Shown here piece after piece: positions 25,897-47,375 of a DNA stretch of 48,858 bases (its first letter is position 1; the number at the start of each line of letters is the position of its first letter). The position numbers and the translations under genes were made by a program. The stretch is from positions 1 through 48,858 of IMG/VR virus record IMGVR_UViG_3300027771_001972; one strand, written 5' to 3'. The notes under the pieces were generated by a model. It was not told the origin of the DNA. It saw only the letters and a list, made by a program, of their open reading frames with translations, and did no database searches. The stretch comes from a virus.

Positions 25897-26763
25897 TTAA
25901 ATCCTAGCTATGAAACTATGTAATTCAGTTGATAAGTGTGATTGGGCTTCTTTATAGAAATCTGTTTTCATATCAGCTTTTACTATTTTATTTTTAATAG
26001 TTGGCTCTCTGTTAAAGTAATCCTCTGAGATGTAGATTCCATCCAATACATATTGTTTAATGTCATAACCCTTTTTAATAGCACCTATGGATGCCATCAT
26101 ACCAAAGGTATCCTCAGGCCCATATCCACCAAATGAATCAGGTATTCCAATGAACTGCCAAAACTCTTTTGAATATAATGTATGCATACCACATCCAAAC
26201 TTAATTGTGGGTATTAAATGCATTACCAGTTTATTTGGGGTTTGTTGATGTACGCTTTCCAATGTTTCTTTAGTATTGAATTCAGTATCTCTCATACTCG
26301 AATCAACCAATACGTCCCAGCTATTATCCCACCATTTTGGAATAGCTGGTGAAACTATATATTTACCATTTAATGGCTCAGCTGCTCTAAGTTGGTACAT
26401 TAATTGATGTTCATGGATTATAATATCAGTATCCACAAATAAGAATTGGTCAAAGTAGTTAATCTTAATAGATTCTCTCTTTTGTTGAGTTGTACCCCAC
26501 ATAGAATCATCCAATATTATTTCATTAAGTTGATGTATTTCCTTATACTGAAATTGTTCGTTGAATATCTTAATGAAATAATCTTGCTTTAATTCACTGT
26601 TATCCCAATCAGTCAATTTTGGATTTAGGTTTAAAGTTGCCTTTATGTACACCTCATAATCCTTACAATACATAAGTGCCTTACGATACTGAATCATAAA
26701 GGTTTGAAACATTTCTATTTCATTTGGCATGATGTGAATACACACTAATGTTTTCTTACTCAT
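25897..26763 (-). CDS. GT-A-fold glycosyltransferase
   Basis: 288 residues. FDQFLFVDTDIIIHEH holds the D-x-D metal/nucleotide-sugar motif (D112-D114). FGGYGPEDTFGMM resembles the [FW]GGxGxED motif that supplies the catalytic acid in galactosyl- and GalNAc-transferases. There is no TM segment, so it acts in the cytoplasm. The start overlaps the upstream GT2 gene by TAATG. It is the last gene of the first glycan block. The sugar is not predictable. Confidence 0.75.
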   Translation of the reverse strand: MSKKTLVCIHIMPNEIEMFQTFMIQYRKALMYCKDYEVYIKATLNLNPKLTDWDNSELKQDYFIKIFNEQFQYKEIHQLNEIILDDSMWGTTQQKRESIKINYFDQFLFVDTDIIIHEHQLMYQLRAAEPLNGKYIVSPAIPKWWDNSWDVLVDSSMRDTEFNTKETLESVHQQTPNKLVMHLIPTIKFGCGMHTLYSKEFWQFIGIPDSFGGYGPEDTFGMMASIGAIKKGYDIKQYVLDGIYISEDYFNREPTIKNKIVKADMKTDFYKEAQSHLSTELHSFIARI

Positions 26764-28001
26764 TAAAATACGTTTTTAAAATGTGGTTTAATCATATCAA
26801 TGGTTTTCAAAGATTTGATGTATATATCAAATATATCAAATGAGAAACTTCCAAATGTATCAGTTTCCTCAATTATAAAAGGTAACCTTTTAATAAACTC
26901 AACAAAATGATTTTGAGTTACTTTACTTGCATCAAATGAAATGATTATATCATTATTTTTTTCATTATCAAATGGTTTAACTCTATCAGTTATATCATAT
27001 TCAGATTGTTTATTTTCCAATGTTACATAAGTACCATATTCACAATCTACATATATAGTATCACACCAAGGTTCTAATATTGATAATAGTTGTGTATTAC
27101 AATTTTTAACAACAAAACCTGTATTGTATCGTTTTGGTACAATTGGTAACATATTATCATCATGCAACACATCAATATGCCATTTTCTCCACCACTCTTT
27201 AAATTTATTTTCTCTGAGTAATGTGTATTCTTCCGAATCCTTTGGTTTGTACCAAATTGTACCATCAGGTAATGGAATCTCTTTTTCAATTTCAATACCA
27301 TCTTTAAACCTACTTCCTCTACAAGTCATATGATACACGTATGCATCTCTACTCTGAATTAGTTTATATCCATTTAAATGAAATCTATTGAAGATATCAG
27401 AATCTTCCAATTCCATTGGTGCGAATAAGAAGTCATGTCCACCTATTGATGTAAAATCTTCTTTATACATTACCCAAGGTGCAAAGATACCCATTGATGT
27501 TTTATCTCTATCAATCAACTCTTTAGAATTTACAAACTCTAAGAATTCATCTTTCTGATTAGTAAACTCACCCACTTCCATACCAAAGTTCCTAACGTAC
27601 TTTTCAGGTCCAGGTGGATGTAGAGGTGGTTCGATACGAGTTGCTGATACAACACTCATTGGTGTAAGGTGTTTCAATGTATTCTGAACATACATTGGTG
27701 TTACTACCATATCTGAATGTAATATTGATACAATTGGAGTCTTAGCCAACTTAAAACCAATATCATACAATACAGTATGTCCAACTCTATCACCACTATC
27801 GTTTCTATATGTGATGATATTATCTTTACCATCTGCGTAACTTTCAATCCACTCCCAACTATTATCATCCGAAGCATCATCCAATATTACGATATCATGC
27901 TCACTACCATAGTGTTCTTCAATAGAACCTACGGCTTGTTGTAGATATGGTAGATTACTTCTACAAGGTATTACAAATGTTATTCTTTGATAATTTGTCA
28001 T
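26763..28001 (-). CDS. Family 2 glycosyltransferase with C-terminal extension
   Basis: GT2 N-terminal domain: ITFVIPCRSNLPYLQQAVGS, DIVILDDASDDNSWEWIESY, and SILHSDMVV in place of the usual D-x-D, with MELEDSDIFNRF downstream as the catalytic E/D region. Residues about 290-412 form an extra domain (VVKNCNTQLLSILEPWCDTI, ending HFKNVF) of unknown fold. Length is 412 residues against about 250-330 for simple GT2 proteins. Coupled at both ends by TAATG. Confidence 0.8.
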   Translation of the reverse strand: MTNYQRITFVIPCRSNLPYLQQAVGSIEEHYGSEHDIVILDDASDDNSWEWIESYADGKDNIITYRNDSGDRVGHTVLYDIGFKLAKTPIVSILHSDMVVTPMYVQNTLKHLTPMSVVSATRIEPPLHPPGPEKYVRNFGMEVGEFTNQKDEFLEFVNSKELIDRDKTSMGIFAPWVMYKEDFTSIGGHDFLFAPMELEDSDIFNRFHLNGYKLIQSRDAYVYHMTCRGSRFKDGIEIEKEIPLPDGTIWYKPKDSEEYTLLRENKFKEWWRKWHIDVLHDDNMLPIVPKRYNTGFVVKNCNTQLLSILEPWCDTIYVDCEYGTYVTLENKQSEYDITDRVKPFDNEKNNDIIISFDASKVTQNHFVEFIKRLPFIIEETDTFGSFSFDIFDIYIKSLKTIDMIKPHFKNVF

Positions 28002-29374
28002 TACTTCTTATTAATATAGTTATCTAAATAATATTGGAGGTCTGATGGTGTTCCCAATCCCCACATTTTGGGTGTATCAAATGTTCTTACTTTCAATCCA
28101 CTCTTAATTGCAATATTGTAAACTGGTGCTACGTAGAATTCACCATTTACTCTGATATCACTATCAATCATTTCCTCAGCGTACTTAACGAAATCAGAAC
28201 CATGCTTATAATAATAGAATCCAATTGTTGCTAAATCAGATATTGGATTCTTCTCCTGCACTTCAGTTACAAATCCATCTTCATCTAATTTTGCGAAACT
28301 CCACTTTGGGTGAGTTGAATGAAATACTGGGATTCCACCATCACAATCATTCTCATTCATTTTGTAGAAAAACTCATTTGAATCCCATTCTACAAATTGG
28401 TCAGAATTAGCGAAGAACAATGGATTACCATTATCAATAAATTCCTTAGCCAATAAAGCAGTACAAGCAGCTCCCTCAGTTACACCCTCAACTTCTACTA
28501 TTGTACAATTTGGTGTAATTAAGTTAAGTAGTGTATCTAAGTTGAATTTCTCTCTATGGGATTTCTGAACTACATATATGTAGTTTGCATCAATGTTTAG
28601 ATTCTCAACTACAACCTGTATCATAGGCTTACCATCAACTTCAATTAATGGTTTTGGAAATACATAACCAGCATCAACAAATCTACTCCCAGCTCCTGCC
28701 ATTGGAATCAATACGTTTAACTTTTCATCTTTCCACTTTGGTTTATCATTTGTTTTACCCATTTCTATTTCGTTTAACTTTTTATAGATTGTATCATAAG
28801 TTACTTCACCCGGATTCTTTACTCTCAATACGTGAGATTTAGAACGTGATGCTGCAAGTAATCCATATGGTGAATCTTCTACGATTAAAGTTTCGTGTGG
28901 TAAACAACTCATCATTGATATTGCCTTCCAATACATTTCTGGATGTGGTTTAGAATTTTTAACATCTTCATTAGATATAACTAAATCCATATACTCCATT
29001 ATACCCAACTTAGATAGAACTGTCAATACAGTCTTTCTGATTGAGTTGGAACAAACTGCTATCTTATACCCATCATCAACCAATGAACTCATTAGTGATT
29101 GTAATTCTACATTGGGTTTTAACTCTTTCAACATTTTCAATGTGTACTTTTGTTTCTTTTCCCAAATATCAGAATGTTGTTCAGTTGGTAAACCTTTGTT
29201 CTCACTCAACATCTCTAACTTTTGATTTGTTTTTAAACCATCATAAGTTGATAGGTGTTCAGCCCAACTGATTTCATATTCTTTTCCTAATGCATCGTTC
29301 AATGCATCAAAGTGGATGTTTTTAGCCTCAACCAATACACCATCTAAATCGTAAATCACTAATTTTGTTTTCAT
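28001..29374 (-). CDS. Fused HAD phosphatase and sugar nucleotidyltransferase
   Basis: Residues 1-205 are a beta-phosphoglucomutase-like HAD domain: LVIYDLDGVLVEAKN (D9, D11), CSNS, SKPHPEMYW and VEDSPYG. Residues about 217-457 are an NTP-transferase: LNVLIPMAGAGSRF, PKPLIEVDGKPM, ANSDQFVEW and later WGLGTPSDLQYY. It can dephosphorylate a sugar phosphate and activate a sugar phosphate to an NDP-sugar. This is similar in logic to heptose or cyclitol pathways, where a bisphosphate is trimmed and then activated. It overlaps the upstream gene by ATGA. The real substrate is not visible. Confidence 0.85.
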   Translation of the reverse strand: MKTKLVIYDLDGVLVEAKNIHFDALNDALGKEYEISWAEHLSTYDGLKTNQKLEMLSENKGLPTEQHSDIWEKKQKYTLKMLKELKPNVELQSLMSSLVDDGYKIAVCSNSIRKTVLTVLSKLGIMEYMDLVISNEDVKNSKPHPEMYWKAISMMSCLPHETLIVEDSPYGLLAASRSKSHVLRVKNPGEVTYDTIYKKLNEIEMGKTNDKPKWKDEKLNVLIPMAGAGSRFVDAGYVFPKPLIEVDGKPMIQVVVENLNIDANYIYVVQKSHREKFNLDTLLNLITPNCTIVEVEGVTEGAACTALLAKEFIDNGNPLFFANSDQFVEWDSNEFFYKMNENDCDGGIPVFHSTHPKWSFAKLDEDGFVTEVQEKNPISDLATIGFYYYKHGSDFVKYAEEMIDSDIRVNGEFYVAPVYNIAIKSGLKVRTFDTPKMWGLGTPSDLQYYLDNYINKK

Positions 29375-30051
29375 ACTATTCCTCTTTCAAATGGGTTGAT
29401 ATTATACTTCCCAAATAATTTATCCAATTCATCCCTATACTCACCCATATTCCACTTACCTTTATTAATAGCTGTAGCTATATAAGGAAATATGATACTA
29501 TCACAATGATGCATACCCCGTTGTTTCTCATTACCCAATCTTACCATATAGTGATGTGTGATGGATTCAACTGCTCCTTCAAAATCCCATATGTTTAAAG
29601 ATGGTACTGAATTTAACAAAGATACGAAATCTTTTCGGTTTATCAAAGTCGGTTGGATAGAAAATGAACTTTCCACTAAAGTATTATCTATATCAGATGA
29701 TGATTTATTGGTAATGGTATTGATAAGCTTTATTGAACCAACCTGTCCACTATTTACCAAATCATAATACCTTTCAATATAATCTAACTTTACCTCACTA
29801 AATAATATCATATCCTCATGCAAAAACAAAATAGTTTCTTCGGTAATCTGAGGTAGTACTTCTTTCCAGCGTTCGGTATATGGTTTGCTATCATCATATG
29901 TTAATTGTACATATTGTGATAATTTTGAATGTTCTTTATCAACCACCACATATACTTTGTTGTTAGGTAAATACTTTTTAAGTTGGCTAAAGAACATATC
30001 CCAAACATCAACCATATCAGTATGTGTATAAACTACTATTGGTACATTCAT
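29371..30051 (-). CDS. Glycosyltransferase-like protein, GT-A type
   Basis: 226 residues. MNVPIVVYTHTDMVDVWDMF at the N-terminus, KVYVVVDK, and TILFLHEDMILF look like a GT-A fold with an HEDM motif in the position of D-x-D. GAVESITHHYM may hold the acceptor site. No exact family. Its position between two nucleotidyltransferases suggests it uses one of the activated sugars. It lies 6 nt after the nucleotidyltransferase gene. Confidence 0.6.
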   Translation of the reverse strand: MNVPIVVYTHTDMVDVWDMFFSQLKKYLPNNKVYVVVDKEHSKLSQYVQLTYDDSKPYTERWKEVLPQITEETILFLHEDMILFSEVKLDYIERYYDLVNSGQVGSIKLINTITNKSSSDIDNTLVESSFSIQPTLINRKDFVSLLNSVPSLNIWDFEGAVESITHHYMVRLGNEKQRGMHHCDSIIFPYIATAINKGKWNMGEYRDELDKLFGKYNINPFERGIV

Positions 30052-30057
30052 ACTAGC

Positions 30058-30750
30058 TTATCTTAATTTTAATTTAACTAAATTAGTATATTCATGTGGT
30101 GTTCCTAACACTATCGTATCATTATCATTATGTACATCACCACTCACAATACGCTTATCATCTTTTATCATTTTATCATATATTTGACTTATATAACCAT
30201 CTACATAATATTTACGATATGTTTCGGTAGAACTAAATCCATATAGACCAGATGTTGCTTCATTGGATATTAGTATCTTTTCAGAAATATTAGTTATAGT
30301 ATTATTATCACGTAGTACATAACTGTATTTATGATTTTGAGATGAAAATAAATCTATATACCCATCTGCATTATTCAATTCATTATTTATTCTTAAATAA
30401 TCTCTGTTATATAATATAGTATCTATGTTATGTACAATAAACCTACTTTGGGAGTTACTTTTCTCAATCCCCCGCAAGAGTGTTTCTGATTGGCTATTTG
30501 TATCATCGATTACTATTATCTTAAAATTTCCAGAAGTATAATAATCACACGTTTTTTGAATATGATTATAATAATCCATATCCTTTTTATGCATTATCAA
30601 ATATACATTATCAAATTTATAATCCATAAACTGATTTAGTAATTCTGATAAAATTGTTCTGTGTCCCCAAGGTAACAAAAACTTAGGTATTTGATAACCC
30701 TCATTTTTAAACCTACTATATTCACCTGCCATTGTTAAAAATAAATCCAT
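30058..30750 (-). CDS. Sugar-phosphate nucleotidyltransferase
   Basis: MDLFLTMAGEYSRFKNEGYQ then IPKFLLPWGHRTIL gives the pyrophosphorylase signature (G-x-G-x-R-F replaced by GEYSRF, then PKxLLP). A later VHNIDTILYN marks the metal-binding region. The 230-residue size fits the compact RmlA/IspD-like class. It lies just after the SDR gene and next to the sugar-phosphate cyclase, so it may activate a cyclitol or modified sugar phosphate. This is an inference from position. Confidence 0.75.
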   Translation of the reverse strand: MDLFLTMAGEYSRFKNEGYQIPKFLLPWGHRTILSELLNQFMDYKFDNVYLIMHKKDMDYYNHIQKTCDYYTSGNFKIIVIDDTNSQSETLLRGIEKSNSQSRFIVHNIDTILYNRDYLRINNELNNADGYIDLFSSQNHKYSYVLRDNNTITNISEKILISNEATSGLYGFSSTETYRKYYVDGYISQIYDKMIKDDKRIVSGDVHNDNDTIVLGTPHEYTNLVKLKLR

Positions 30751-30762
30751 TGCTATATTTGT

Positions 30763-31419
30763 TTAGTGCCATTCATTTGTTGGAAATATTGTGATATCTT
30801 TTACCACAACATTATCAGATAGACCAATTATATAGTCTACTGTATTAATTATATCAGTTGGGTCTAACAACTTAGTAACATCACCAGGATACTTATTACC
30901 AGAGTTCCATAACTCGGTATTTATACCACCCGGATGTATATTACTTATCAATATACCCTTTTCTATTAATTCTTGTGATAATGAATCCATAAATACTTTC
31001 AATCCTGCCTTGGATGCACTATATAAAGATTGGTTCTTAATACCACTTAGACCAGCTACTGAATTTATATTTATTATTCTACCACGTTTCATCTTTGTAA
31101 TCGAATGTAATGTAACCATAATAGAACCCTTTAGGTTTATATCTATTACTGAATTAATATCCGATTGTTTAATATTATCATAGTCAGAACGTTGATATAT
31201 TGCTGCGTTATTTATTAAAATATCTATATTATCGATTTCATTAATGAAATTAATAATTTCACTCTCATTTGATATATCAACACTTTTACATGGGAAATTT
31301 ACCTTATCACTATTTCTACCGAGTGCGTATATATCATAACCCAGCTTTGTAAAATGAGTAACCATTTCCTTACCCACTCCACTTGTTCCACCTGTTATTA
31401 AAATTGTTTTATTTTTCAT
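30763..31419 (-). CDS. Short-chain dehydrogenase/reductase
   Basis: A classical SDR of 218 residues: TGGTSGVGK (8-16) binds NAD(P), DILINNAA (74-81) is the NNAG motif, NSVAGL supplies the Ser, YSASK (about 132-136) is the catalytic Tyr-x-x-x-Lys, and HPGGINT follows. It reduces or oxidises a keto/hydroxyl group. Here it overlaps the sugar-phosphate cyclase gene by 11 nt, so the cyclase product (a cyclic ketone) is the obvious candidate substrate. It is slightly shorter than typical SDRs (about 250). Confidence 0.85.
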   Translation of the reverse strand: MKNKTILITGGTSGVGKEMVTHFTKLGYDIYALGRNSDKVNFPCKSVDISNESEIINFINEIDNIDILINNAAIYQRSDYDNIKQSDINSVIDINLKGSIMVTLHSITKMKRGRIININSVAGLSGIKNQSLYSASKAGLKVFMDSLSQELIEKGILISNIHPGGINTELWNSGNKYPGDVTKLLDPTDIINTVDYIIGLSDNVVVKDITIFPTNEWH

Positions 31420-32542
31420 TTATATCTTTGAATATATTAATTATAGTAATTACCTCATCGAATGTTACATCATTCAAAAATATATGTGAACCCAGTCCAT
31501 TAGGTATTGGTAAATTCTGGTTTCCGTTTCTATGCTTTACAGTATCACTTAGACTTTCCCATAAGATATTTATATCATAAAACATTGGATGGTCTGTTGG
31601 TAATCCTAATTTTTTTGAGGTTTCATATACCTTATCCAAATCTTCTTTAGTTAAATACCCCCTCTTATATGATAAACAACACGAAAATAATATATCAATA
31701 GCAACTGCATGTCCATGACTTAAACTAGGTACATTATCAGTTTCTAAACTCTTCATTTCTATTATAGGGCTGAAAGAGTGTCCAAAATCCATCGACCTCT
31801 TCAAATCAGTTTCCCATAAATTATGTTCCAATTGGCTTTTCATAACAGATATAGCCCTATGAATTACCTCATGTGATGTATGGTGATTGAAATTATTATT
31901 ATATAGAATATCACCGAAATTATATAAAATATTAAACAAATCCAAATCTGCAATAACTCCAATCTTTATAATCTCACCAAGACCAGAACTTATTTCTATT
32001 GGTTCCAATGTTGGTAAAAATGTAGTATCTAATAAAGATGCTACTGGTGGGTAATATGAACCTAATCGATTTCTACGTGTCATATAGTTTATACCAGTTT
32101 TAGCTGCTACACTAACATCAACTATACCAAGTAAGGTAGTTGGTATCCTTAGATATGGAATACCCCTACGGTACATACTTGCGGCTAAACCTACTAAATC
32201 AAGTACCACACCTCCACCTATTCCTATAAGGGAAATATCACGTCTAGTAAGTCCGAAGTTTTCCATTTTCTCCAATAAGATAAATAGATTGTCTACACTC
32301 TTATTACATTCACCCCCATCCAATAGTACTGATTGGTATGGTATATTATTTTCTTCGAAGTAATTTGTTATGTCAGTAAGATAATGTGTTGCAACGTTTG
32401 CATCTATCACCAATAGCTTTTTTTGTTTTAAATCACCAATATAATCAAGTAATTTTACATTATCCACATCAAACATATTTTCAATTTGTGATATGGTATA
32501 TGTTATAGGGTTACTTGTATCGATTTTCCAGTTATTTTTCAT
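31409..32542 (-). CDS. Sugar-phosphate cyclase, 2-epi-5-epi-valiolone synthase-like
   Basis: Member of the 3-dehydroquinate synthase superfamily (NAD-dependent, Zn). NAD-binding GIGGGVVLDLVGLAA (107-121), AAKTGIN (K148), RRNRLGSY (N158), GLGEIIKIG (E190, K193), MDFGHSFSP (251-259) and LSHGHAVAID (H276). Zinc ligands by alignment: E190, H255, H276. In DHQ synthase the sixth block is LNxGHTxGH. Here it is MDFGHSFSP, with Asn to Asp (252) and His to Pro (259), changes reported, as I recall, for 2-epi-5-epi-valiolone synthases, which cyclise sedoheptulose 7-phosphate. That assignment is likely but unproven; DHQ synthase is less likely. It overlaps both neighbours. Confidence 0.85.
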   Translation of the reverse strand: MKNNWKIDTSNPITYTISQIENMFDVDNVKLLDYIGDLKQKKLLVIDANVATHYLTDITNYFEENNIPYQSVLLDGGECNKSVDNLFILLEKMENFGLTRRDISLIGIGGGVVLDLVGLAASMYRRGIPYLRIPTTLLGIVDVSVAAKTGINYMTRRNRLGSYYPPVASLLDTTFLPTLEPIEISSGLGEIIKIGVIADLDLFNILYNFGDILYNNNFNHHTSHEVIHRAISVMKSQLEHNLWETDLKRSMDFGHSFSPIIEMKSLETDNVPSLSHGHAVAIDILFSCCLSYKRGYLTKEDLDKVYETSKKLGLPTDHPMFYDINILWESLSDTVKHRNGNQNLPIPNGLGSHIFLNDVTFDEVITIINIFKDINEK

Positions 32543-33515
32543 TTATCAAATTATTTAATAAGTTAGAAGCTACTCCATAAAAGAATATAGCTTTATTTAA
32601 ATCTTTTTCTATTTTAAATGGTATCATTCTAATGAATTGAGATATTTCCAATATTTTTATTGATATTACCTCTTCCTTTGAATAATTAGTATTTATGAAT
32701 TTGGTCAATTCATCATTAAACCAACGTATTCCATTTGGTATATTTATGTTTTCCATTATGATATTATTTTCTACGATTTTACAATCTTTATTATTATAAT
32801 ATTCATATAATGAATTAGATGATTGTAATAATTGAGAATACTCTGCTAAATCAGAATCTATCGTAGTTTCATCATATGGGTCTATCAACCATATTTTTTC
32901 TTTTTGTGGTTCGTATAGTATATTTTCTAATGTTAAATTTCCATGTGTAAAACACTCAGTTGGGTTTACATAATTTTTAGACATCAATTTATAGAAAATA
33001 TTTATATTTTTATGAAACGATGGTATATCTTCTCCAATAAAATTTATACTATCATATTTTATAAAATTACTAAATGTAGTATTTTTATTTGCCATTAATA
33101 ATGGCCTATCAATATCAGAATTCTTATATAAATCAAATCCACCGGAATTGGATTTTAATTTAAAACTATCATACATTGGTTTAATTGATGCTTGTAATTT
33201 ATTAAAGAATGAGGTTGCTTCTTCTTTTGTGTTTACTGAATCCAAATATTCATATCCATTCATAGAATCAGCCATATATGGCATAGTATAATATGCACAT
33301 TGCTTATTATCATAATATGAATCACCCACACCAAAATCAAGTACAGGTATAAATAAATCAGGAAACATTTCGTTGTATCTCTGTAATCTCTTTAACTGAG
33401 AATACCATCGATTATACCCATATTCAATATCGGTATGTAAATCAACTTCTTTTCTAACATACTTTTCATCAATAACTCCAGTTTTACTTAATGAACCACC
33501 TTTTAATATTCTCAT
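32532..33515 (-). CDS. Aminoglycoside-phosphotransferase/choline-kinase-fold protein
   Basis: FTHGNLTLENILY (about residues 190-202) is the Brenner-type HGD-x-x-x-x-N catalytic loop (Asp replaced by Asn), and WLIDPYDETT carries the metal-binding D. The N-lobe is weak, with SKTGVIDEKYVRKEV. It likely phosphorylates a small hydroxylated molecule, or binds one. Its place before the cyclase, SDR and nucleotidyltransferase suggests a sugar or cyclitol kinase. HGN rather than HGD may lower or alter activity. It overlaps the cyclase gene by 11 nt. Confidence 0.7.
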   Translation of the reverse strand: MRILKGGSLSKTGVIDEKYVRKEVDLHTDIEYGYNRWYSQLKRLQRYNEMFPDLFIPVLDFGVGDSYYDNKQCAYYTMPYMADSMNGYEYLDSVNTKEEATSFFNKLQASIKPMYDSFKLKSNSGGFDLYKNSDIDRPLLMANKNTTFSNFIKYDSINFIGEDIPSFHKNINIFYKLMSKNYVNPTECFTHGNLTLENILYEPQKEKIWLIDPYDETTIDSDLAEYSQLLQSSNSLYEYYNNKDCKIVENNIIMENINIPNGIRWFNDELTKFINTNYSKEEVISIKILEISQFIRMIPFKIEKDLNKAIFFYGVASNLLNNLINEK

Positions 33516-33531
33516 TTATTTTATTTTTTAT

Positions 33532-34257
33532 TTATTCCCAAACACTTTGTAATGGTTGTTTTTTATCCCATAACTTAGTTTTTGTTAAAAACCACTTCCA
33601 CCCTTTAATTCCATTAACGATACCACCATCAGTACCACCAGCCCATGTTTCATATGGAGAACCAGCCTTTATATCATTTGATAAAATATTAAAAACATCT
33701 CCGAAATTTCTCATATTTTCATAATTTGAGTAAAACCACATGTCAGCAGGTCCTTCAGTTTCCAAATATTGCCAATCAGCTATGTAAAAATTATTCATAT
33801 CTAAATTTGGATTAAAATTAATACATTGTACTGGGTATGGGTTTACTCCGCCTTTCCCAGATGTATCTCTATTGATTCTACCTAAATCAAATCTACTCTT
33901 TATAACACAATCGTAATTTACTTCCGATTTTATCATTAATTCAAATGATTTTTGTATCGAATAATATTGAGAAAATATATTCCAAAATGGTGTACCATGT
34001 GATGGGAATTTATCTAATCCATTTTGGTTGAATATTGGTTTAAAATCAATTTGTGTTTCAAATATGGAATCTTTTATAAGATTATCATATAATCGTTCTA
34101 TAATATCTTTATTTGATATATCCCAACTATGTATAAACACATCTACTGTATTACCATTTAGAATGTGCTTTTTAATGTACTCAAATCCATCCTCTCCAAA
34201 TGAATTGGGAGATTTTGGTGAATTAAAATAACCAGATAAACATAGTGCTATTTTCAT
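33532..34257 (-). CDS. Glycosyltransferase-like protein
   Basis: 241 residues of the type MKIALCLSGYFNSPKSPNSF, DVFIHSWDISN, IKSRFDLGRI (R-x-D region) and DGGIVNG. The same pattern forms the C-terminal domain of the protein at 9279-10796. It resembles capsular and O-antigen GT-like proteins, with no signal peptide. The sugar and acceptor are unknown. ATG shares a base with the DegT gene stop (TAATG). Confidence 0.6.
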   Translation of the reverse strand: MKIALCLSGYFNSPKSPNSFGEDGFEYIKKHILNGNTVDVFIHSWDISNKDIIERLYDNLIKDSIFETQIDFKPIFNQNGLDKFPSHGTPFWNIFSQYYSIQKSFELMIKSEVNYDCVIKSRFDLGRINRDTSGKGGVNPYPVQCINFNPNLDMNNFYIADWQYLETEGPADMWFYSNYENMRNFGDVFNILSNDIKAGSPYETWAGGTDGGIVNGIKGWKWFLTKTKLWDKKQPLQSVWE

Positions 34258-34883
34258 TATTCTATTGTTTTAGTATCTTTGAATATAGTGAATTCGGTTA
34301 AATCTCGATAACCATTATCTTCACCTAAATCACTCATACTTTCTGGGTAGTTTTGAAACATAGATAATCCATGTGCAGCTTGTTGTGGAGTCATATACAT
34401 ATTCCAACCATGAAATGTAATATCATCATCCTTATAGTACTTTTCACTTCTACCTTCATATCTTGCTTTCTTAAACCAATCTGCTGCTTCAGCATCATCG
34501 GTTAGAATCATACCACCTTTCCAAATAGGAAGTAACTTTTTAATATGAAATGATAAAGTCATAAATTGACCAGGTACATACATATCAGATGTCAATCGCT
34601 TAGCCGCATCCCAAATAGGATATGGTTTTAATTGATACATACCTTTCCAATGATTTGTTTCTGCTCTCTTATCAAATATAACCTCACCACCAGCGTGTGT
34701 GATTGATTGAGGTACTGATAGGTAAGTTTGTGATGGAATTGTAACTTCCGTTACTTCCAAATACTTACAAGCTAAAAATAATGCGTTTGTACAACTATCG
34801 ACTGAGATAGCATAAGGTGCTCCAGTATAATGAGCTATCTCCTCTTCAAACATTCTTACTATTTTGTATGGGTTGTGTAACAT
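34257..34883 (-). CDS. Short DegT/DnrJ/EryC1-type aminotransferase
   Basis: Sequence features of PLP-dependent sugar aminotransferases: FEEEIAHYTGAPYAISVDSC, TNALFLACKYL, VTIPSQTYLSVPQSI, IWDAAKRL (D in the PLP-N contact), and TLSFHIKKLL with the Schiff-base Lys, then KGGMILTDD. At 208 residues it is about half of the usual 370-400, lacking the C-terminal small domain. The frame extends upstream to 34928, but the ATG at 34883 follows the GNAT stop by 2 nt and is preferred. It may act as a reduced enzyme or with another subunit; activity is uncertain. Confidence 0.75.
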   Translation of the reverse strand: MLHNPYKIVRMFEEEIAHYTGAPYAISVDSCTNALFLACKYLEVTEVTIPSQTYLSVPQSITHAGGEVIFDKRAETNHWKGMYQLKPYPIWDAAKRLTSDMYVPGQFMTLSFHIKKLLPIWKGGMILTDDAEAADWFKKARYEGRSEKYYKDDDITFHGWNMYMTPQQAAHGLSMFQNYPESMSDLGEDNGYRDLTEFTIFKDTKTIE

Positions 34884-34885
34884 AT

Positions 34886-35269
34886 TTAATCTTTTGTTAA
34901 TATATAAAATTTCTTTGTAAATCCACAAGCTTCAAATAATTTGATACTAGCTTCATTATCCATTTTTACTTTTGCAAATGCGGTTGGTTCCTCATTCATA
35001 ATTTCATTAATCATAAACTTACCAATTCCGTTACCTTGATAATCAGGATGAGTACATACTCTGATATCATCTTCAATAACTCCAACGTAACCAGCGGGTT
35101 CACCATTAAGTAAACCAATTCGATAGTAGTGTGAATTACCTTTCATATAATTGGTTTGCATGTCCTCAGTAATGTGTACTGATTTTATGAACCCACTTAT
35201 AACTCTTTCATCGTTTCTGAGAGTTCTTACAAACTCCCAATATTCCTTTGTACATTTTACTAATTCCAT
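34886..35269 (-). CDS. GNAT-family N-acetyltransferase
   Basis: 127 residues with the acetyl-CoA pyrophosphate loop HPDYQGNGIGKFMI and the closing NEASIKLFEACGFTKKFY. Sugar-acetylating GNATs commonly act after a DegT aminotransferase, and here the DegT gene comes next (2-nt gap). This suggests formation of an N-acetylated amino sugar. It overlaps the upstream GT-D-like gene by 10 nt. Confidence 0.88.
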   Translation of the reverse strand: MELVKCTKEYWEFVRTLRNDERVISGFIKSVHITEDMQTNYMKGNSHYYRIGLLNGEPAGYVGVIEDDIRVCTHPDYQGNGIGKFMINEIMNEEPTAFAKVKMDNEASIKLFEACGFTKKFYILTKD

Positions 35270-36036
35270 TTACATATCTTTTGAATATCCTGTCCACCTT
35301 TGTAACTCCAAAATGCTTGTAGATATCCTCTATGTGTTGGCATATCCATCATTGGTGTTAAGCAAGTCCCAATATCAATATAAGTATTATTGGGATAATC
35401 TCTGAACAACTCCACAATTGCCAAGTTGGTGAAAGTAGAAGCTGAGAAAAGGAATACGTGATTTGTGATATTGTTATCTCCAATCCATTGTTTAATTTCT
35501 TCAATTTTTCCATAATCGTTTATCATTGCGTTATAACCTACTCTAAAATCTTTTTTGATAAATGGTAACCTTTCTAAGTTAGCATCATCGTGTCCAATAA
35601 ATACACAATCTCTACTATAAAATATAGGTAGTATATGTGTGATGAATATTGGATAGTTTCCATTAACCCATAGGTTTGCCCAAGTTAATGAATCATCATC
35701 TCCACCAGCTAAATCAACTTGCCAATCAAATGCCTCTTTACCTACACAACAACTACAACTGATTCCTTTGAAATAATTGTGTTGTTTGTATTGTAATGAT
35801 TCAACTAACTTTTGTTGATAGAACGAATGTTCATTTGGGTCAAAGTGTTTGAAATCAGGTTGTTGATATATACCACCCTGCTTTTCATCTCCTATTTGTA
35901 TTACACCATTTCCCAAAACTAATTCTTTGTTTTGTAAGATGTACATTTCCCCATCAGAATATCTAGAGAATGCAAAGTGTTCTTGCTCTTCTAACTTAGT
36001 TCTGAATTTTACAAAGTGTTCTCTAAAGTTCTTCAT
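35260..36036 (-). CDS. GT-D-like glycosyltransferase (DUF1792-type)
   Basis: 258 residues. FAFSRYSDGEMYILQNKEL carries the R-x-x-DGE motif that marks the DUF1792/GT-D family, where D and E bind the nucleotide sugar and metal. Further features are NWVNGNYPIFIT-like and DCVFIGHDDANL segments and VFLFSASTFTNLAI. GT-D enzymes glycosylate adhesins or glycans in Gram-positive bacteria; a phage copy with a Bacteroidota host is unusual. It overlaps wecB by 14 nt and also has an internal promoter, P12, just upstream. Confidence 0.75.
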   Translation of the reverse strand: MKNFREHFVKFRTKLEEQEHFAFSRYSDGEMYILQNKELVLGNGVIQIGDEKQGGIYQQPDFKHFDPNEHSFYQQKLVESLQYKQHNYFKGISCSCCVGKEAFDWQVDLAGGDDDSLTWANLWVNGNYPIFITHILPIFYSRDCVFIGHDDANLERLPFIKKDFRVGYNAMINDYGKIEEIKQWIGDNNITNHVFLFSASTFTNLAIVELFRDYPNNTYIDIGTCLTPMMDMPTHRGYLQAFWSYKGGQDIQKICKWN

Positions 36037-37024
36037 TTCGTAATATATCTAATACCTTTTCAGATGTGTAACCATCTCCATATGGACATGATGTTCTAAT
36101 ATACGGATTTTTTATGAGTTTACCAAATAAATCACTTAAATCTTTTGGTGTTTCACACATATGTAAATGACCTGTATCTATACCTTCAGGTCTTTCCGTT
36201 GTTTTTCTACAAACTATTACCTTCTTATTAAAAAATGTTCCCTCTTCTTGTAATCCACCACTATCAGATATTACTAATACTGATTTACGTAATGTGTTGA
36301 TTAGATATTCATGCTCCATTGGTTCAACAACTGTCACATTGCGTAGCAACGGTCTATGTTCTCTTATTTTTGGATTTGGATGTATTGGTAACACAAATTT
36401 AAATTGTGGATTGGATACTGCCAACTTTTCAATTTCAGTAAACCATTCACTCATCCAATGTAGATTTTCTCTACGATGTAATGTTACTAATATAAGATTT
36501 TCAGTTGTACATTCACCTAAATCAGTTAAGTTATCTAATACCGAATTACCTACTATAAATGTTTTACCATGTACTTTTTCACCTTTTAGATTATCAGATG
36601 ATAATTCAGTTGGTGCAAAGTTCACATCAGCTATTCTAGCTATCATCTGTCTATATCCTTCTTCTGGATATGGATGTTGTAAGTTTCCACTTCGTAAACC
36701 AGCTTCCAAATAATAGATTCGTAACTTACGATTAAATGCAGCTAATGAACATCCGAATGCTGAACCAGTATCACCTTGAACTAACACTCCTCTAAAATCC
36801 CCATTTGGAAATTGTAACATACAATCTGATATGATTGAATCTAACCTATTGGCGTTTTCCGATATGGTAATTTTATAATCAACCTCTACATCTTTCAACA
36901 AATCAATATGCTGTCCAGTAAATAAAAGTTTATACTCACTCCTATCCATAAGTTTTATTAATGGTTTAATTTTCAACCATTCGGGCCTTGTCCCAAAACA
37001 TAATAATATTGGATTATTTTTCAT
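36023..37024 (-). CDS. wecB: UDP-N-acetylglucosamine 2-epimerase
   Basis: Interconverts UDP-GlcNAc and UDP-ManNAc. Family marks: FGTRPEWLKIKPL near the N-terminus, VQGDTGSAFG, YYLEAGLRSG, HPYPEEGYRQ, TLHRREN, and the strong SDSGGLQEEG. It is 333 residues, near the usual 350-380. Cytoplasmic. It provides ManNAc-type sugars for the surrounding glycosyltransferases. Starts 11 nt inside the upstream GT gene's 3' end. Confidence 0.93.
   Translation of the reverse strand: MKNNPILLCFGTRPEWLKIKPLIKLMDRSEYKLLFTGQHIDLLKDVEVDYKITISENANRLDSIISDCMLQFPNGDFRGVLVQGDTGSAFGCSLAAFNRKLRIYYLEAGLRSGNLQHPYPEEGYRQMIARIADVNFAPTELSSDNLKGEKVHGKTFIVGNSVLDNLTDLGECTTENLILVTLHRRENLHWMSEWFTEIEKLAVSNPQFKFVLPIHPNPKIREHRPLLRNVTVVEPMEHEYLINTLRKSVLVISDSGGLQEEGTFFNKKVIVCRKTTERPEGIDTGHLHMCETPKDLSDLFGKLIKNPYIRTSCPYGDGYTSEKVLDILRNEEL
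36096..36127 (-). promoter_or_regulatory. Internal promoter P12, TTTG-N20-TATATTAG, within wecB
   Basis: Minus strand: TTTG (36127-36124), 20 nt, TATATTAG (36103-36096), embedded in the last codons of the epimerase gene. TTTGGTAAA matches the -33 regions of P2, P6 and P9. It could drive the GT-D, GNAT, DegT and cyclitol genes. A chance match is possible because it lies in a coding region. Confidence 0.5.
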
Positions 37025-37784
37025 TTACTAACCTCCATCCTTTCTTTCTTTGTTCGTGAAAATATTGATTCATTAATTGTTTAAATGGTGTTCCTTCTAC
37101 ACTAGCTTGATTTGATTCCCATAATGAGTTCTCATCTCCACCATACTCAGCACCTTTAATACTTCCCCATAATGATTTATCCGATTTTGGATGTGGTGGA
37201 ACGAATGTTGGAATACCTGCGTATTTTTGTAACATATAAGAAAAGTGCATATCCTCACCACAAGTGTTATACTTAGGGTCTGGCAATTCTCTTACCATAT
37301 GAGATAACCATTCCTTCTTAAAGAACCAACTATGTCCAACTAAATCAACTTGAACTGTCCTATCATTGTTACCAGTATCAGGCCAGCCGAATCTAAGGTA
37401 ATGTTCATAGTAAGATGAATTTTGTGGTGGTAATGGGTTTGGATAAAGTAAACCAACTGAACCTAATAAACCTTCATTAGTTTTCATTGTTTCCATACAA
37501 TTCTCCAACCATCGTTCACCCGGTATTGTATCATCATCAAATACACAAACATATGGGTTTCTAGCATTCATTGCAAAATAGAATCTTGCCCATACTCCAA
37601 AGTTATAGTTACAATATGCAACTGGTATCTCTGAACCTATATCGTAATTTAATAAATCATTATCACCCGGATTATTGTACCACAATAGAATCTCATCAGG
37701 TTTAACTGTTTGATTCTTCAATGCTTCCAATTGTTCGTTGAGGTTATCTCCTCTTTTATAACCATTTAAAATAACTGTTATCAT
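37014..37784 (-). CDS. Family 2-like glycosyltransferase, GT-A
   Basis: 256 residues from the ATG at 37784, which overlaps the TGA of the upstream gene (ATGA); a start nine codons upstream is possible but less likely. MITVILNGYKRGDNLNEQLE, VCVFDDDTIPG with D-x-D, and CGEDMHFSYML with the catalytic GED region. It is cytoplasmic and transfers a hexose or amino sugar. The acceptor is unknown. Confidence 0.85.
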   Translation of the reverse strand: MITVILNGYKRGDNLNEQLEALKNQTVKPDEILLWYNNPGDNDLLNYDIGSEIPVAYCNYNFGVWARFYFAMNARNPYVCVFDDDTIPGERWLENCMETMKTNEGLLGSVGLLYPNPLPPQNSSYYEHYLRFGWPDTGNNDRTVQVDLVGHSWFFKKEWLSHMVRELPDPKYNTCGEDMHFSYMLQKYAGIPTFVPPHPKSDKSLWGSIKGAEYGGDENSLWESNQASVEGTPFKQLMNQYFHEQRKKGWRLVNEK

Positions 37785-38761
37785 AACTTCTTTTTTGTTT
37801 CGTTTAACCAAACTTTGTTGGTATAATACTTTTTATAATTCTCTTTAGCTGTGTTACTACATAATTGATAGAACTCAGTATCCTCTTTAAGTTGAATTGC
37901 TAACTCCCTAGCCCTCTTTACATTACCAACATCAACTGATGTAAATGAATGTATTAGGCGTTGTGTATCAACCTTCTCATTACCAATTACAGGTATTCCA
38001 AAGTATCCACAATTAAGAGAGAATGTACCAGCAGCAACAGTTGGCATCAAATGTACACCATACTTAAACTTAGATACTTCTTTCATCCAATCTATCCAAC
38101 TCATACGTGGGAAATGATTAATATTATCCAATGCCCCTTCATTGATTCGTTTAGCATGCGAATCTTGTCCCCATATCGGTACATCAAATTCAGATGCTAC
38201 CATATATGATTCAAATCCACCATACCATCTTGCAAAGTTACCACCAATCAAAACCTTATCTTCGGTTATTGGTGTAATATCTTTTATCAATTCCTCTATC
38301 ATTAAAGAACGAATAAACTCAACCTTCTTAGATGGGAATAAACCTTTGTAGTAATTAACATCACTATCATTGTGGGCAAAGATACCATCGGTACTACCCA
38401 AAAAGTTGTAGAACCTAATTTGGTCTACAACTTCATAATCATTCCACCACCAATGTGGTCCTTCTTGTATGTAATATACCTTTTTGTTAGTTTCCTTTAA
38501 AGTATCAACTAATGGTTCATTTAGATAATGTGAAGCTGGGTTAATCCCATCTATAATCTTTGAACCTTCAGCAGATAAGAATAACTTACCTTTTGGGAAT
38601 ATAATAAATACAACATCATAGTTACTAACTGATTGGTATTTAGCTAATGGATAATGAACTGCTTTTAATTCGTTCATCCATGCAAACTCTGTGCGTGCGT
38701 TAGGATGGTTATTTGGTACCAACCCATTAAATCCCATTTCGGTTAGAAATGCTACTTTCAT
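37781..38761 (-). CDS. GT-B-fold glycosyltransferase-like protein
   Basis: 326 residues. MKVAFLTEMGFNGLVPNNHP, VYYIQEGPHWWWNDY, GIFAHNDSDVNYY, VLIGGNFARWYGGFESY and AAGTFSLNCGYFGIPVIGNE are GT-B-like; the last block (S-N-C-x-x-x-x-x-P-V-x-x) is at the nucleotide-sugar site of GT4-like enzymes. No signal peptide. It overlaps both neighbours by ATGA. The family cannot be set more precisely. Confidence 0.7.
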   Translation of the reverse strand: MKVAFLTEMGFNGLVPNNHPNARTEFAWMNELKAVHYPLAKYQSVSNYDVVFIIFPKGKLFLSAEGSKIIDGINPASHYLNEPLVDTLKETNKKVYYIQEGPHWWWNDYEVVDQIRFYNFLGSTDGIFAHNDSDVNYYKGLFPSKKVEFIRSLMIEELIKDITPITEDKVLIGGNFARWYGGFESYMVASEFDVPIWGQDSHAKRINEGALDNINHFPRMSWIDWMKEVSKFKYGVHLMPTVAAGTFSLNCGYFGIPVIGNEKVDTQRLIHSFTSVDVGNVKRARELAIQLKEDTEFYQLCSNTAKENYKKYYTNKVWLNETKKKL

Positions 38762-39387
38762 ATCGTATCGTATAATGCGTTTTGTTTTTCCTGTCTTTCA
38801 ATCTCCTTTGGATGATAGATTGCGAATGGCTCTTCCAATGGTAGAATAGTTAACGTATTGTAACCTTTAATTCTCTCATGTACTTTACCTTCCCATTCTA
38901 TTGTAGATGTTCTTCTATATATTCTAGTTTGTAAATCAGGCCAATTTACCCAACCTTCGTTATTTACATTCCATCCCCACTTTTTAATATGTTCATCGGT
39001 TAAACCTTCAACTGTATTAACTCTAGGTACAAAGAATAAATCAATATCTAAATTAGCTTCTATTAAATCATGCATATTTGCCACCAAATACTCATGTGGG
39101 ATTTCATCTGCATCTATTTGAAAAATGAAGATACCTTTAGCATGATTCTTTATATTATTTTTAAATGATGCAAAATCTTTATTAAGTGGGAAATCAATCA
39201 CATTTACATTTGAATGTAGTTGTTGAATAATTCTCAAATAATCAATAACTTCTTTTGTTGCACCATCAGTATCATATTGTATGAGAATCTCATCATCAGA
39301 TTGTACTCTGGGATGTAGGAAGTTAACTAATTTTGTAATCTCAGTTAGTTCATTACAAACTGTGATTGCATATGTGATGTTAATCAT
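38758..39387 (-). CDS. Family 2 glycosyltransferase
   Basis: 209 residues. ITYAITVCNELTEITKLVNF, an FQIDADEIPHEYL D-x-D region, and WEGKVHERIKGYN, which is the W-x-x-x-V-H-E block of GT2 proteins such as LPS core beta-glucosyltransferases. It lacks membrane segments. It overlaps the upstream 160-residue gene by 8 nt and the next by ATGA. Confidence 0.85.
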   Translation of the reverse strand: MINITYAITVCNELTEITKLVNFLHPRVQSDDEILIQYDTDGATKEVIDYLRIIQQLHSNVNVIDFPLNKDFASFKNNIKNHAKGIFIFQIDADEIPHEYLVANMHDLIEANLDIDLFFVPRVNTVEGLTDEHIKKWGWNVNNEGWVNWPDLQTRIYRRTSTIEWEGKVHERIKGYNTLTILPLEEPFAIYHPKEIERQEKQNALYDTI

Positions 39388-39862
39388 AGTATTGTTTTAA
39401 TGTTGGTTTCTTTAATGTAAATTCAGTAGCATGTTGGATACCAGATATCTTATAAGTTCGATATGCTGCTCCTTTAGCAACAAAGTTAGGTTTGTTTTTT
39501 ATATATGAATCATATACCTTATTACCACCCGTATCCATTGGAGTTGCCAATTCGTATAGACCTATCTTAACTTGCTCACTATTCAATATATCAGAATCAT
39601 CGTTTCCACCTTTTTTTGCCAAATCCTTAAACCAATTTAAAAACTTTGTTGGTTCTATATTTGATAGTTTTAATGCTGATACTTTACCTTCATATATACC
39701 TGTAACGAATATCAATGTTTCATCAGCTCCTTTTAATGTAGTTCTCCCAGTATCAACATATTTGTATGTTGAAATCTTATAAATTCCATAAGGTTTAATC
39801 TTTCCTTTAGAAACTCTAGTTCCAGAATCCATCAAACCTCTATATTTTGGTGCGTAATTCAT
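39380..39862 (-). CDS. Hypothetical protein, 160 aa
   Basis: 160 residues beginning MNYAPKYRGLMDSGTRVSKG and rich in Tyr, Lys and Thr. TTLKGADETLIFVTGIYEGK and VSALKLSNIEPTKFLNWFKD give an alternating beta pattern followed by a helix. Not a glycosyltransferase. Related sequences may occur in T4-like marine phages, but I do not recall a name. ATG shares a base with the stop of the GT-B gene (TAATG). Confidence 0.7.
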   Translation of the reverse strand: MNYAPKYRGLMDSGTRVSKGKIKPYGIYKISTYKYVDTGRTTLKGADETLIFVTGIYEGKVSALKLSNIEPTKFLNWFKDLAKKGGNDDSDILNSEQVKIGLYELATPMDTGGNKVYDSYIKNKPNFVAKGAAYRTYKISGIQHATEFTLKKPTLKQYYD

Positions 39863-41160
39863 TATACTTTATTTAATTTTGGTAATTGCATTTTGTTTTT
39901 GTTTAACTTAGGTAAGTTGAATGGTTTTTGTTGTGGAATTGCTTTCACATATTTACTCATCATCCCATCAAATACTTCATCCATTTTACTTAAACTAAAG
40001 TTTGTTTCTATGTTTGTTTTTAACCCAGCTGATTGCTTTAGGTATGTATCATACTCATTGAACACTTTATACATCTTATTAGCTGCATCTGAGTAATTTA
40101 CACTAAACCATTTAGCCTCTTTAAGTAAGAACTTATCAGCGGCAGATTCATGCACATTTGTTAATTCACCTTCTAAGAAAACAGTGTGTTCTTTTGGTAA
40201 GAAATCAACGTGTCCACTCCAACCACTAACCATAATAGGTTTACCAGTTAATGCAAATTCAGCTAAAGGTCTACCATACCCCTCACCTTTGGTGAAAGAT
40301 ACCATTGCCTTTACTTTAGGATGATTGTATAGTTCACTCATTTCCGAATCTTCCAAATCTCCATGTAGTAAATAAATCTTTGGTAAATCATCACCTAAAT
40401 CTTTTATAATAGCCTCTATCTTATCTCTCGTATTCTCTCTATCGATAACTGAGAAACCAGCATGTGATGTTTTTAGGATTAGACCTGGTCTTTTATCTTT
40501 AGGTAGATATTTGAAAACAGTAGAGAATGTTTTAATTACCATTCCCACATCTTTTCTATCTTGCCCCAAATTACCTTTCAACCAATGTCCTACATATAGG
40601 AAGTTGAAATCAGATTCCAATACACCATCTAAGATATCTACTTTAGAATCGGATGGTAAGTATCTTTCTAAATCAACTCCTTCGAATAAAACCTCAACTG
40701 GTTTTGTAATTCTATATTCACTTATCACTTGCCCAGTTTGATTATTCTTTTCTTGATATGCAGTTTGTAACATTACATTCTTTGTAAATGTAGATGGTAC
40801 AATTATCAAATCCATTTTATTGGAACCATCTATAAATTCTTTTGGAATGACCGTAGTTTCTACACCAGCAGTTATACCAATGTTATAGTTACCCTTTGGT
40901 TCGAATTCATTTGCAACAGACATCTGCATAAAGATATCTGGCTTTTTCTCCAACTTAGTGATTATGTTAGCGAAAACTTTATTACCGAATTCGGAATCGG
41001 GTTTAATTTGATTTTGTGGAGTATTACCCCATCTAGTTGGTACAATTTTTACATCATACTTATTCATTTTAAATAAGCTTCTAAGGATATCCCTTGCGTG
41101 GTCACCATACCCACTTCGAGTAAATACCGGCGCCTGATATACTAATAATGGTTTATTCAT
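39862..41160 (-). CDS. Family 4-like glycosyltransferase (GT-B)
   Basis: 432 residues. MNKPLLVYQAPVFTRSGYGD, IVPSTFTKNVM, FLYVGHWLKGNLGQDRK, and the retaining GT-B signature FTKGEGYGRPLAEFALTGKP, where E-x-x-x-x-x-x-E contacts the nucleotide sugar. The closing helix is charged. Similar enzymes occur in several T4-like marine phages. It lies 11 nt downstream of the NTF2-like gene. Confidence 0.85.
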   Translation of the reverse strand: MNKPLLVYQAPVFTRSGYGDHARDILRSLFKMNKYDVKIVPTRWGNTPQNQIKPDSEFGNKVFANIITKLEKKPDIFMQMSVANEFEPKGNYNIGITAGVETTVIPKEFIDGSNKMDLIIVPSTFTKNVMLQTAYQEKNNQTGQVISEYRITKPVEVLFEGVDLERYLPSDSKVDILDGVLESDFNFLYVGHWLKGNLGQDRKDVGMVIKTFSTVFKYLPKDKRPGLILKTSHAGFSVIDRENTRDKIEAIIKDLGDDLPKIYLLHGDLEDSEMSELYNHPKVKAMVSFTKGEGYGRPLAEFALTGKPIMVSGWSGHVDFLPKEHTVFLEGELTNVHESAADKFLLKEAKWFSVNYSDAANKMYKVFNEYDTYLKQSAGLKTNIETNFSLSKMDEVFDGMMSKYVKAIPQQKPFNLPKLNKNKMQLPKLNKV

Positions 41161-41171
41161 AACTTTTTATT

Positions 41172-41528
41172 TTATTGTTGTGTTGCGTAAATTGATATTA
41201 TTTTGTAGTTATCATCAAATACAAGTTCATCTACTATGTTGAGAGTTTCCCCGCCAATTTCAAGAGTTATAACATTTGAATATCCTATTGGATTTGATGC
41301 TTCCTCTGCATAGAATTCAGTTGTACTTACCACTGTAAGTGTGAACTCATTTTCAAAGAATGCTTCATTAACTTCCAATACATCATTAGGGTTAGTCCAT
41401 TCACCATTCCAATCGGTTAACTTTATATCATTTGAGTATAATCTAGCTAAGTAATTTAAATCCTTATTTTGGAATCTATCAAAGTATTTGTTGTTTACTG
41501 CTAATGTGCGTGTTGTATCTAAAGCCAT
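41172..41528 (-). CDS. NTF2/SnoaL-like small protein
   Basis: 118 residues with the NTF2-like pattern: FDRFQNKDLNYLARLYSNDI for the first helices, LTDWNGEWTNPNDVLEVNEA, and beta-strands to IVDELVFDDNYKIISIYA at the end, like SnoaL/ketosteroid-isomerase domains. Such domains bind small molecules or isomerise sugars and polyketides. It sits between two GT-B genes, 1 nt after the upstream one. Confidence 0.65.
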   Translation of the reverse strand: MALDTTRTLAVNNKYFDRFQNKDLNYLARLYSNDIKLTDWNGEWTNPNDVLEVNEAFFENEFTLTVVSTTEFYAEEASNPIGYSNVITLEIGGETLNIVDELVFDDNYKIISIYATQQ

Positions 41529-41529
41529 A

Positions 41530-45151: not shown

Positions 45152-45152
45152 C

Positions 45153-46100: not shown

Positions 46101-46123
46101 TTATATATTTTTATTTTGTTTTA

Positions 46124-47344: not shown

Positions 47345-47375
47345 ACGTTTCTTTTTTTAGTGTTAATAGATTTTA

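Follow-up and report, generated by a model that had tools for sequence, protein, structure and literature searches.

An EEVS-like cyclase in a conserved four-gene unit on a T4-like phage contig and a proposed route to nucleotide-activated C7-cyclitols

Enzymes of the 2-epi-5-epi-valiolone synthase (EEVS) type are known to catalyse the entry step towards bacterial pseudosugars of the drug type and towards animal gadusol, and a gene resembling them on a virus contig raises the question of what a phage would make with it. In this study, we analysed the 48,858 bases of IMG/VR record IMGVR_UViG_3300027771_001972, a partial virus contig (hereafter, the window), with emphasis on positions 28001-33515, which are occupied by six minus-strand open reading frames (ORFs), several of them overlapping by 4-11 bases (Table 1). 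A first-pass annotation had read these overlapping or adjacent genes as a five-gene C7-cyclitol pathway, comprising an APH/choline-kinase-fold protein, a sugar-phosphate cyclase, a short-chain dehydrogenase/reductase (SDR), a nucleotidyltransferase and a HAD phosphatase fused to a second nucleotidyltransferase. All six ORFs were located in place, and Pfam searches agreed on the SDR, the DHQ_synthase-superfamily cyclase, the HAD domain and two NTP_transf_3-like proteins, namely, the dedicated nucleotidyltransferase and the HAD-fusion domain. The observation itself was confirmed and the pathway reading was partly supported: the phage holds its own version of a conserved module of four genes, which probably produces a nucleotide-activated C7-cyclitol (carba-sugar) as a building block of surface glycans.

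Class of the cyclase

The cyclase matched the DHQ_synthase superfamily in Pfam (PF01761, 4.6e-30; PF24621, 4.5e-23). A PDB sequence search returned the known EEVS ValA first (4p53, 273 bits, 39% identity), ahead of DDGS (207 bits) and the best 3-dehydroquinate synthase (DHQS, 131 bits). As the first-pass annotation had proposed, the structure was predicted; the AlphaFold model (pLDDT 92) matched ValA 4p53 best (E 1.9e-33, TM 0.94 by target), followed by DDGS and then by DHQS at about 1e-24 or worse. The zinc ligands expected of the superfamily are intact (E190, H255 and H276), and the NAD-binding GGG..D motif is kept (G109-111, D115).

The active-site residues were compared over subsets of the EEVS fingerprint positions, a fingerprint that Kean et al. 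(2014) are said to have defined with 14 residues. The MDFGHSFSP block, described in the first-pass annotation as carrying Asp for Asn and Pro for His, was present: D252 stands where nine of nine DHQS have Asn and the solved DDGS has Ala, and P259 stands where the same nine DHQS have His and DDGS has Pro. The Asn and His of the DHQS LN-GHTFGH block are thus both absent. H337 corresponds to His in ValA, Thr in DDGS and varied residues in DHQS. The D252/P259/H337 combination is common to 18 other EEVS-type, 22 viral and 9 cassette-bearing cellular rows, with Gln at the Pro position as the single exception (P259 is kept in 17 of the 18 other EEVS-type rows). Because EboD shares the Asp and the His but has His for Pro, the combination, and not any single residue, marks the EEVS type.

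Phylogenetic grouping of the cyclase had been set as a check beforehand. The tree placed the protein on the side of the sedoheptulose-7-phosphate cyclases, apart from DHQS (support 100/98), and as sister to a Balneolaceae protein (99/95). Sequence, fold, active-site residues and tree therefore support a cyclase that is EEVS-like rather than DHQS-like, with the activity predicted. PHROG holds no family for the cyclase or the kinase-like protein, and a fold search of BFVD with the phage EEVS gave no match. The first-pass annotation knew of no phage example, and none was found in 50,697 named phages or in the open-access papers searched. Cyclase matches did occur among the named phages; the inspected ones were DHQS-like, with aroK-aroB neighbours in two, and the records were bacterial contigs or unannotated, and were thus not accepted as precedents.

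A four-gene unit in viruses and cells

Single-sequence pattern scans of the viral and genome collections found nothing, nor did a pattern scan for the nucleotidyltransferase alone, and an alignment-based scan was needed. With an alignment of ValA and the window protein, 56 viral contigs with an EEVS-like cyclase were detected in IMG/VR, many of which are near-copies and do not represent 56 independent cases; the scan of GTDB genomes yielded 200 loci, of which 80 were kept.

Four genes make up the conserved unit: those of the kinase-like protein, the EEVS-like cyclase, the SDR and the dedicated nucleotidyltransferase. In all 46 testable viral loci and all 7 cellular loci, the gene immediately upstream of the cyclase encodes the kinase-like protein. 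The SDR gene follows directly downstream in 51 of 52 viral loci and is one gene further in the remaining one. Overlaps within the cassette are mostly 1-23 bases (11 bases between the SDR and cyclase genes of the window). A nucleotidyltransferase occurs within the cassette in all 29 viral loci with enough flank; the dedicated type is found at position -2 or +2 from the cyclase in 29 viral and 8 cellular loci. It precedes the cyclase by two genes in 28 viral loci and follows it at the same distance in the window, in viral locus L007 and in seven cellular loci. The arrangement is far beyond chance because dozens of divergent contigs share the gene order. The motifs of the remaining partners are also intact: the SDR Tyr-x-x-x-Lys is invariant in 17 relatives, as are the catalytic Arg, Lys and Asp of the dedicated nucleotidyltransferase (R13, K23 and D110).

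In cells, the four-gene unit was found in a Balneolaceae genome (L063), a Woesearchaeota bin (L064), three Myxococcales, a member of Fibrobacteria and the isolate Polynucleobacter sp. 80A-SIGWE (L067), which is probably the easiest cultured carrier to obtain; two further genomes, L070 and L071, hold a partial unit without this SDR. The Myxococcales carry it as stand-alone four-gene operons, and a neighbour comparison showed it to be absent from actinobacterial antibiotic-type EEVS loci. The cyclase tree implies that the gene passed between cells and viruses at least twice. Genes beside the cellular cassettes include a Wzx-type flippase (L064), an ABC exporter (L063) and ManC/GDP-mannose dehydratase (L067), which fits surface polysaccharide. 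The kinase-like family was present in each of the nine cassette genomes tested; among the remaining EEVS genomes tested, it gave a single match, which was weak and distant. It is generally rare in cells: 1 of 247 genomes in the Balneola phylum, 3 of 379 in Myxococcota and 1 of 398 in the Polynucleobacter family, the latter two with additional weak distant matches. No match was obtained in the 50,697 named phage records or in 72,556 plasmids.

Some of the cassette-bearing contigs are certainly T4-like phages. L017, L058 and L061 encode the T4 major capsid protein gp23 at 1e-142 or better, L017 and L058 also carry terminase and tail sheath genes, and the capsid protein of L058 shares 66-67% identity with those of cyanophages and Pelagibacter phage HTVC008M. 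The 394-kb L007 contig gave a sheath-like match that fell short of the cut-off. Only a part of the contigs could be confirmed as viral by searching for terminase, sheath and capsid genes, and the shorter ones rest on the IMG/VR classification.

In seventeen viral loci, the kinase-like gene is immediately preceded by a RuBisCO-like gene, and the dedicated nucleotidyltransferase was not found there; in 14 of the 17 (enough flank), a HAD-fusion-type nucleotidyltransferase lies four or five genes upstream instead. The RuBisCO-like protein (L028:5796-7034; PF00016, 5e-43) is far below all RuBisCO cut-offs and directly precedes the kinase-like gene and cyclase; the gene also occurs in L013, L021, L027, L030, L033, L036, L042-L045, L048, L050-L052, L054 and L056. 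This divergent protein had no match in named phages and may be an enolase or epimerase acting on the cyclitol. In the same group, a radical SAM protein (L028:10367-11362) and a second SDR-cluster protein without a Pfam match (L028:9721-10425) come right after the cyclase-SDR pair.

Proposed route and its alternatives

In the favoured reading, the cyclase would close host sedoheptulose 7-phosphate to 2-epi-5-epi-valiolone (EEV) or a stereoisomer, with loss of the phosphate, as expected from its class. The SDR would then reduce the ring ketone, the APH-fold protein would phosphorylate a hydroxyl (C1, or C7) of the unphosphorylated cyclitol, and the dedicated nucleotidyltransferase would couple the cyclitol phosphate to a nucleotide and give a nucleoside diphosphate (NDP)-cyclitol; the order of these steps may differ. 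Finally, a neighbouring glycosyltransferase of the cluster could add the activated cyclitol to a phage-encoded or host-surface glycan. Because EEV carries no phosphate, the four genes would be exactly enough. The acarbose work provides a precedent for C7-cyclitols as substrates of each enzyme type: valienol 7-phosphate is phosphorylated by AcbU at its 1-hydroxyl, as is valienol at a lower rate, AcbR makes GDP-valienol, and the AcbR/ValB nucleotidyltransferases act on valienol phosphates (PMC9200736).

The kinase step is the least certain step of this route. The kinase-like protein has no significant Pfam match, and its fold is not visible from sequence; the APH/choline-kinase fold that had been assigned to it was established by modelling (AlphaFold pLDDT 93.4), for which Foldseek against the PDB returned maltokinase (5jy7, 3e-8) and APH(2'') as the best matches. 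Maltokinase phosphorylates an anomeric hydroxyl.

Several results weigh against the favoured reading. First, the stretch HGN-L-T-L-E-N at residues 191-198 takes the position of the kinase HxD-x4-N motif, and all 56 cyclase-linked members with a readable motif have Asn instead of the catalytic Asp, a point that the first-pass annotation overlooked. The loop Asn and the Asp of the IDP motif (D212) are retained. The change is a lineage-specific trait because all readable cyclase-linked members have Asn while distant relatives that are not EEVS-linked keep HGD (L172, L177-L179 and L184-L188), and it may mean lower activity, altered chemistry or loss of activity. Second, identity between the cassette clade and ValA stands at only 39%, and R157 replaces the Lys of ValA and DHQS in every viral and cassette-bearing cellular row. 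Third, the tree leaves DDGS and the EEVS groups in an open fork, without a clean division between them, and therefore does not fix the exact product within the sedoheptulose-7-phosphate cyclase side. Fourth, no sequence similarity to known cyclitol kinases or nucleotidyltransferases was shown, and no C7-cyclitol-containing polysaccharide was found in the open-access papers searched. As a separate observation, two of the HGD-type distant relatives occur as a C-terminal domain, in a membrane-protein-like ORF of 650 aa.

Among the alternatives, the one that survives best, unlikely as we consider it, is that the NDP-cyclitol is activated at C7 (e.g. as CDP-cyclitol) and transferred as phospho-cyclitol, as in teichoic-acid-like polymers, and not as a C1-linked pseudo-glycoside. 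EEV has a free C7 hydroxyl, and the dedicated nucleotidyltransferase is MobA-like, with a profile that also reaches ribitol-5-phosphate cytidylyltransferase, as does the NCBIfam match NF001183. However, the best PDB match of this family profile is a nucleoside-diphosphate-sugar pyrophosphorylase (4evw, 6e-33), RmlA types score about like cytidylyltransferases, and no obvious TagF-type phosphotransferase was seen among the scanned neighbours.

A little more doubtful is the original five-gene scheme, which gives the HAD-nucleotidyltransferase fusion a role on the same cyclitol, either an AcbJ-like phosphatase step or a second activation. In its favour, both the window and L063 (68% identity) have the full-length fusion next to the cassette, L007 has it less than 5 kb away, and the RuBisCO-like loci use the fusion type in place of the dedicated enzyme. 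However, S-CAM9, S-PRM1, B23 and other cyanophages carry the fusion (55-58% identical) without a cyclase, and most cyclase-bearing phage loci have no HAD gene near the cassette. For these two reasons the fusion was rejected as a core member and is an accessory glycan gene; the kinase-fold protein, cyclase, SDR and dedicated nucleotidyltransferase of the five-gene scheme were retained. The window carries both nucleotidyltransferase types, and the cyanophages only the fusion.

It is improbable that the cyclase and SDR make a free C7-cyclitol (an osmolyte, UV screen or signal) beside which the nucleotidyltransferase and glycan genes are mere neighbours. Animal EEVS does feed the sunscreen gadusol without nucleotide activation (PMC4426668), and the kinase-like protein may be inactive; against this, the nucleotidyltransferase is present in every viral cassette with enough flank and in the stand-alone Myxococcales operons, and no methyltransferase-oxidoreductase (MT-Ox) or ATP-grasp partner of the gadusol/mycosporine type was seen. 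Least credible by far is an auxiliary metabolic gene whose product, a DHQS, would serve aromatic amino acid synthesis. The best NCBIfam model is indeed aroB (214 bits) but below its 305-bit cut-off, no shikimate genes lie nearby, and we rejected this reading on the residues (D252, P259 and H337 differ from all DHQS), the tree and the fold, in which the ValA and DDGS structures outrank all DHQS.

Beyond the window, the nucleotide-activated cyclitol reading leads to a wider and more tentative one, which we hold slightly short of even: many aquatic phages, scattered bacteria and one archaeal bin would incorporate a carba-sugar into surface polysaccharides or virion glycans via an NDP-C7-cyclitol, using a module that includes an APH-fold enzyme working without the usual catalytic Asp. 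The compound would be a structural sugar and not a component of an antibiotic, perhaps blocking glycosidases, receptors or rival phages. If true, phages make carba-sugars, which have no ring oxygen and should therefore resist glycoside hydrolases, via a conserved mobile module; the conflict of phage and host at the surface would gain a new chemical strategy, and a small new set of enzymes would be available for making activated cyclitols.

Phage context and comparison with known systems

The contig is a T4-like phage because it holds a block of sliding clamp, clamp-loader ATPase and clamp-loader small subunit genes; capsid genes are outside the partial contig, and the assignment rests on this replication block. 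The best named matches of the clamp-loader ATPase are about 40% identical, mostly from Synechococcus, Microcystis and Pelagibacter phages. A DruA-like gene (DUF4338, PF14236 2e-20; 46124-47344) is inserted between the sliding-clamp and clamp-loader genes, and a subtilase-family peptidase gene (16878-18491; PF00082 2e-30; PHROG 9158 4e-80) adjoins two long ORFs without Pfam matches.

Table 1 Features of the window around the cassette and in the replication block
Feature	Position	Strand	Evidence
APH/maltokinase-fold kinase-like protein, proposed cyclitol kinase, 327 aa	32532..33515	(-)	AlphaFold, Foldseek and motif counts
EEVS-type sugar-phosphate cyclase (activity predicted), 377 aa	31409..32542	(-)	PDB sequence/fold matches, residue table, tree
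SDR reductase, proposed to reduce the cyclitol ketone, 218 aa	30763..31419	(-)	PF00106 2e-40
Dedicated sugar/cyclitol-phosphate nucleotidyltransferase, 230 aa	30058..30750	(-)	PF12804 1.8e-4; profile to PDB 4evw
Protein without family, 226 aa	29371..30051	(-)	No Pfam/PHROG/NCBIfam match
HAD hydrolase fused to second nucleotidyltransferase, accessory, 457 aa	28001..29374	(-)	PF13419 8e-30; PHROG 3980/29467
Protein adjoining the kinase-like gene, 241 aa	33532..34257	(-)	PHROG 13607 7e-14
Glycan-gene region around the cassette	25897..42921	(-)	Glycosyltransferases GT2 and GT4, UDP-GlcNAc 2-epimerase, short DegT aminotransferase, GNAT (Pfam/PHROG scans)
Clamp-loader small subunit	44379-44828	(-)	T4-type replication block
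Clamp-loader ATPase gp44	45153-46100	(-)	T4-type replication block
Sliding clamp gp45	47376-48071	(-)	T4-type replication block
T4-type replication block (45-44-62)	44379..48071	(-)	phrog_225, phrog_168 5e-80, phrog_223, PF16790

The cassette is the middle of a 17-kb glycan-gene block, in agreement with the glycan-synthesis setting proposed earlier. The 226-aa protein, which had been labelled a glycosyltransferase, was not confirmed as such by Pfam, PHROG or NCBIfam; a 38% identical homologue occupies the same place in Balneolaceae L063. The 241-aa protein belongs to gene cluster 5, which is represented in 33 loci; homologues of the protein sit beside the cassette in L063 and in several phage loci. 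A DegT/DnrJ/EryC1 aminotransferase gene (34257-34928) encodes about 200-220 aa, compared with about 360 for full ones; it is probably not a broken gene because the short form is conserved in phages (L027, L028 and others) and in Balneolaceae (L063:5625-6254, 74% identity). The identities to the L063 glycan cluster (68% for 28001-29374, 74% for 34257-34928) suggest gene exchange with Balneolota or a host related to Balneolota.

In the open-access papers searched, no report was found of a phage EEVS, of a four-gene unit with these enzyme families or of its spread in aquatic phages, and no relevant paper on cyclitol-containing polysaccharides or valiolone in phages. 3-Dehydroquinate synthase genes have been reported in an algal virus (PMC13431477) and among auxiliary metabolic genes of the gut virome (PMC12927239), with the enzyme class unchecked.

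Several known systems share parts of the locus. The cyanophage glycan cassettes of S-CAM9, S-PRM1 and B23 belong to T4-like phages and combine glycan genes with the HAD-nucleotidyltransferase fusion, but have no cyclase, kinase-like gene or dedicated nucleotidyltransferase. The kinase-like protein has the fold of maltokinase and the APH(2'') kinases, with about 10% identity and Asn for the catalytic Asp. Like the phage cyclase, EboD (ebo operon) lies on the sedoheptulose-7-phosphate cyclase side, with Asp at 252 and His at 337 (PMC5133447); it differs in His at 259 and in its operon partners. The animal gadusol pathway uses the same cyclase type, whereas the phage cassette has a nucleotidyltransferase and glycan genes instead of an MT-Ox partner.

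The early acarbose and validamycin pathways (AcbC-M-O-L-N-U-J-R; ValA-C-B), with which the first-pass annotation compared the locus, likewise combine cyclase, reductase, kinase-type protein and nucleotidyltransferase towards an NDP-cyclitol. The likeness is by function only, because the phage kinase is not ROK, the nucleotidyltransferase is not GlgC-like PF00483, and neither an epimerase nor a GT20-type pseudoglycosyltransferase was found among the scanned glycan genes, which hold only GT2/GT4 types and MobA-like NTP_transf_3; the cassette also has fewer genes. Compared with ValA itself, the phage cyclase shares the fold, the Zn and NAD motifs and the Asp/Pro/His combination, but falls in a separate clade, has R157 for Lys and stands among other partners in its four-gene cassette. 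EEVS and the acarbose/validamycin route are already known; the phage locus would represent a new variant of the cyclitol activation pathways, with its cyclase filed as EEVS-like.

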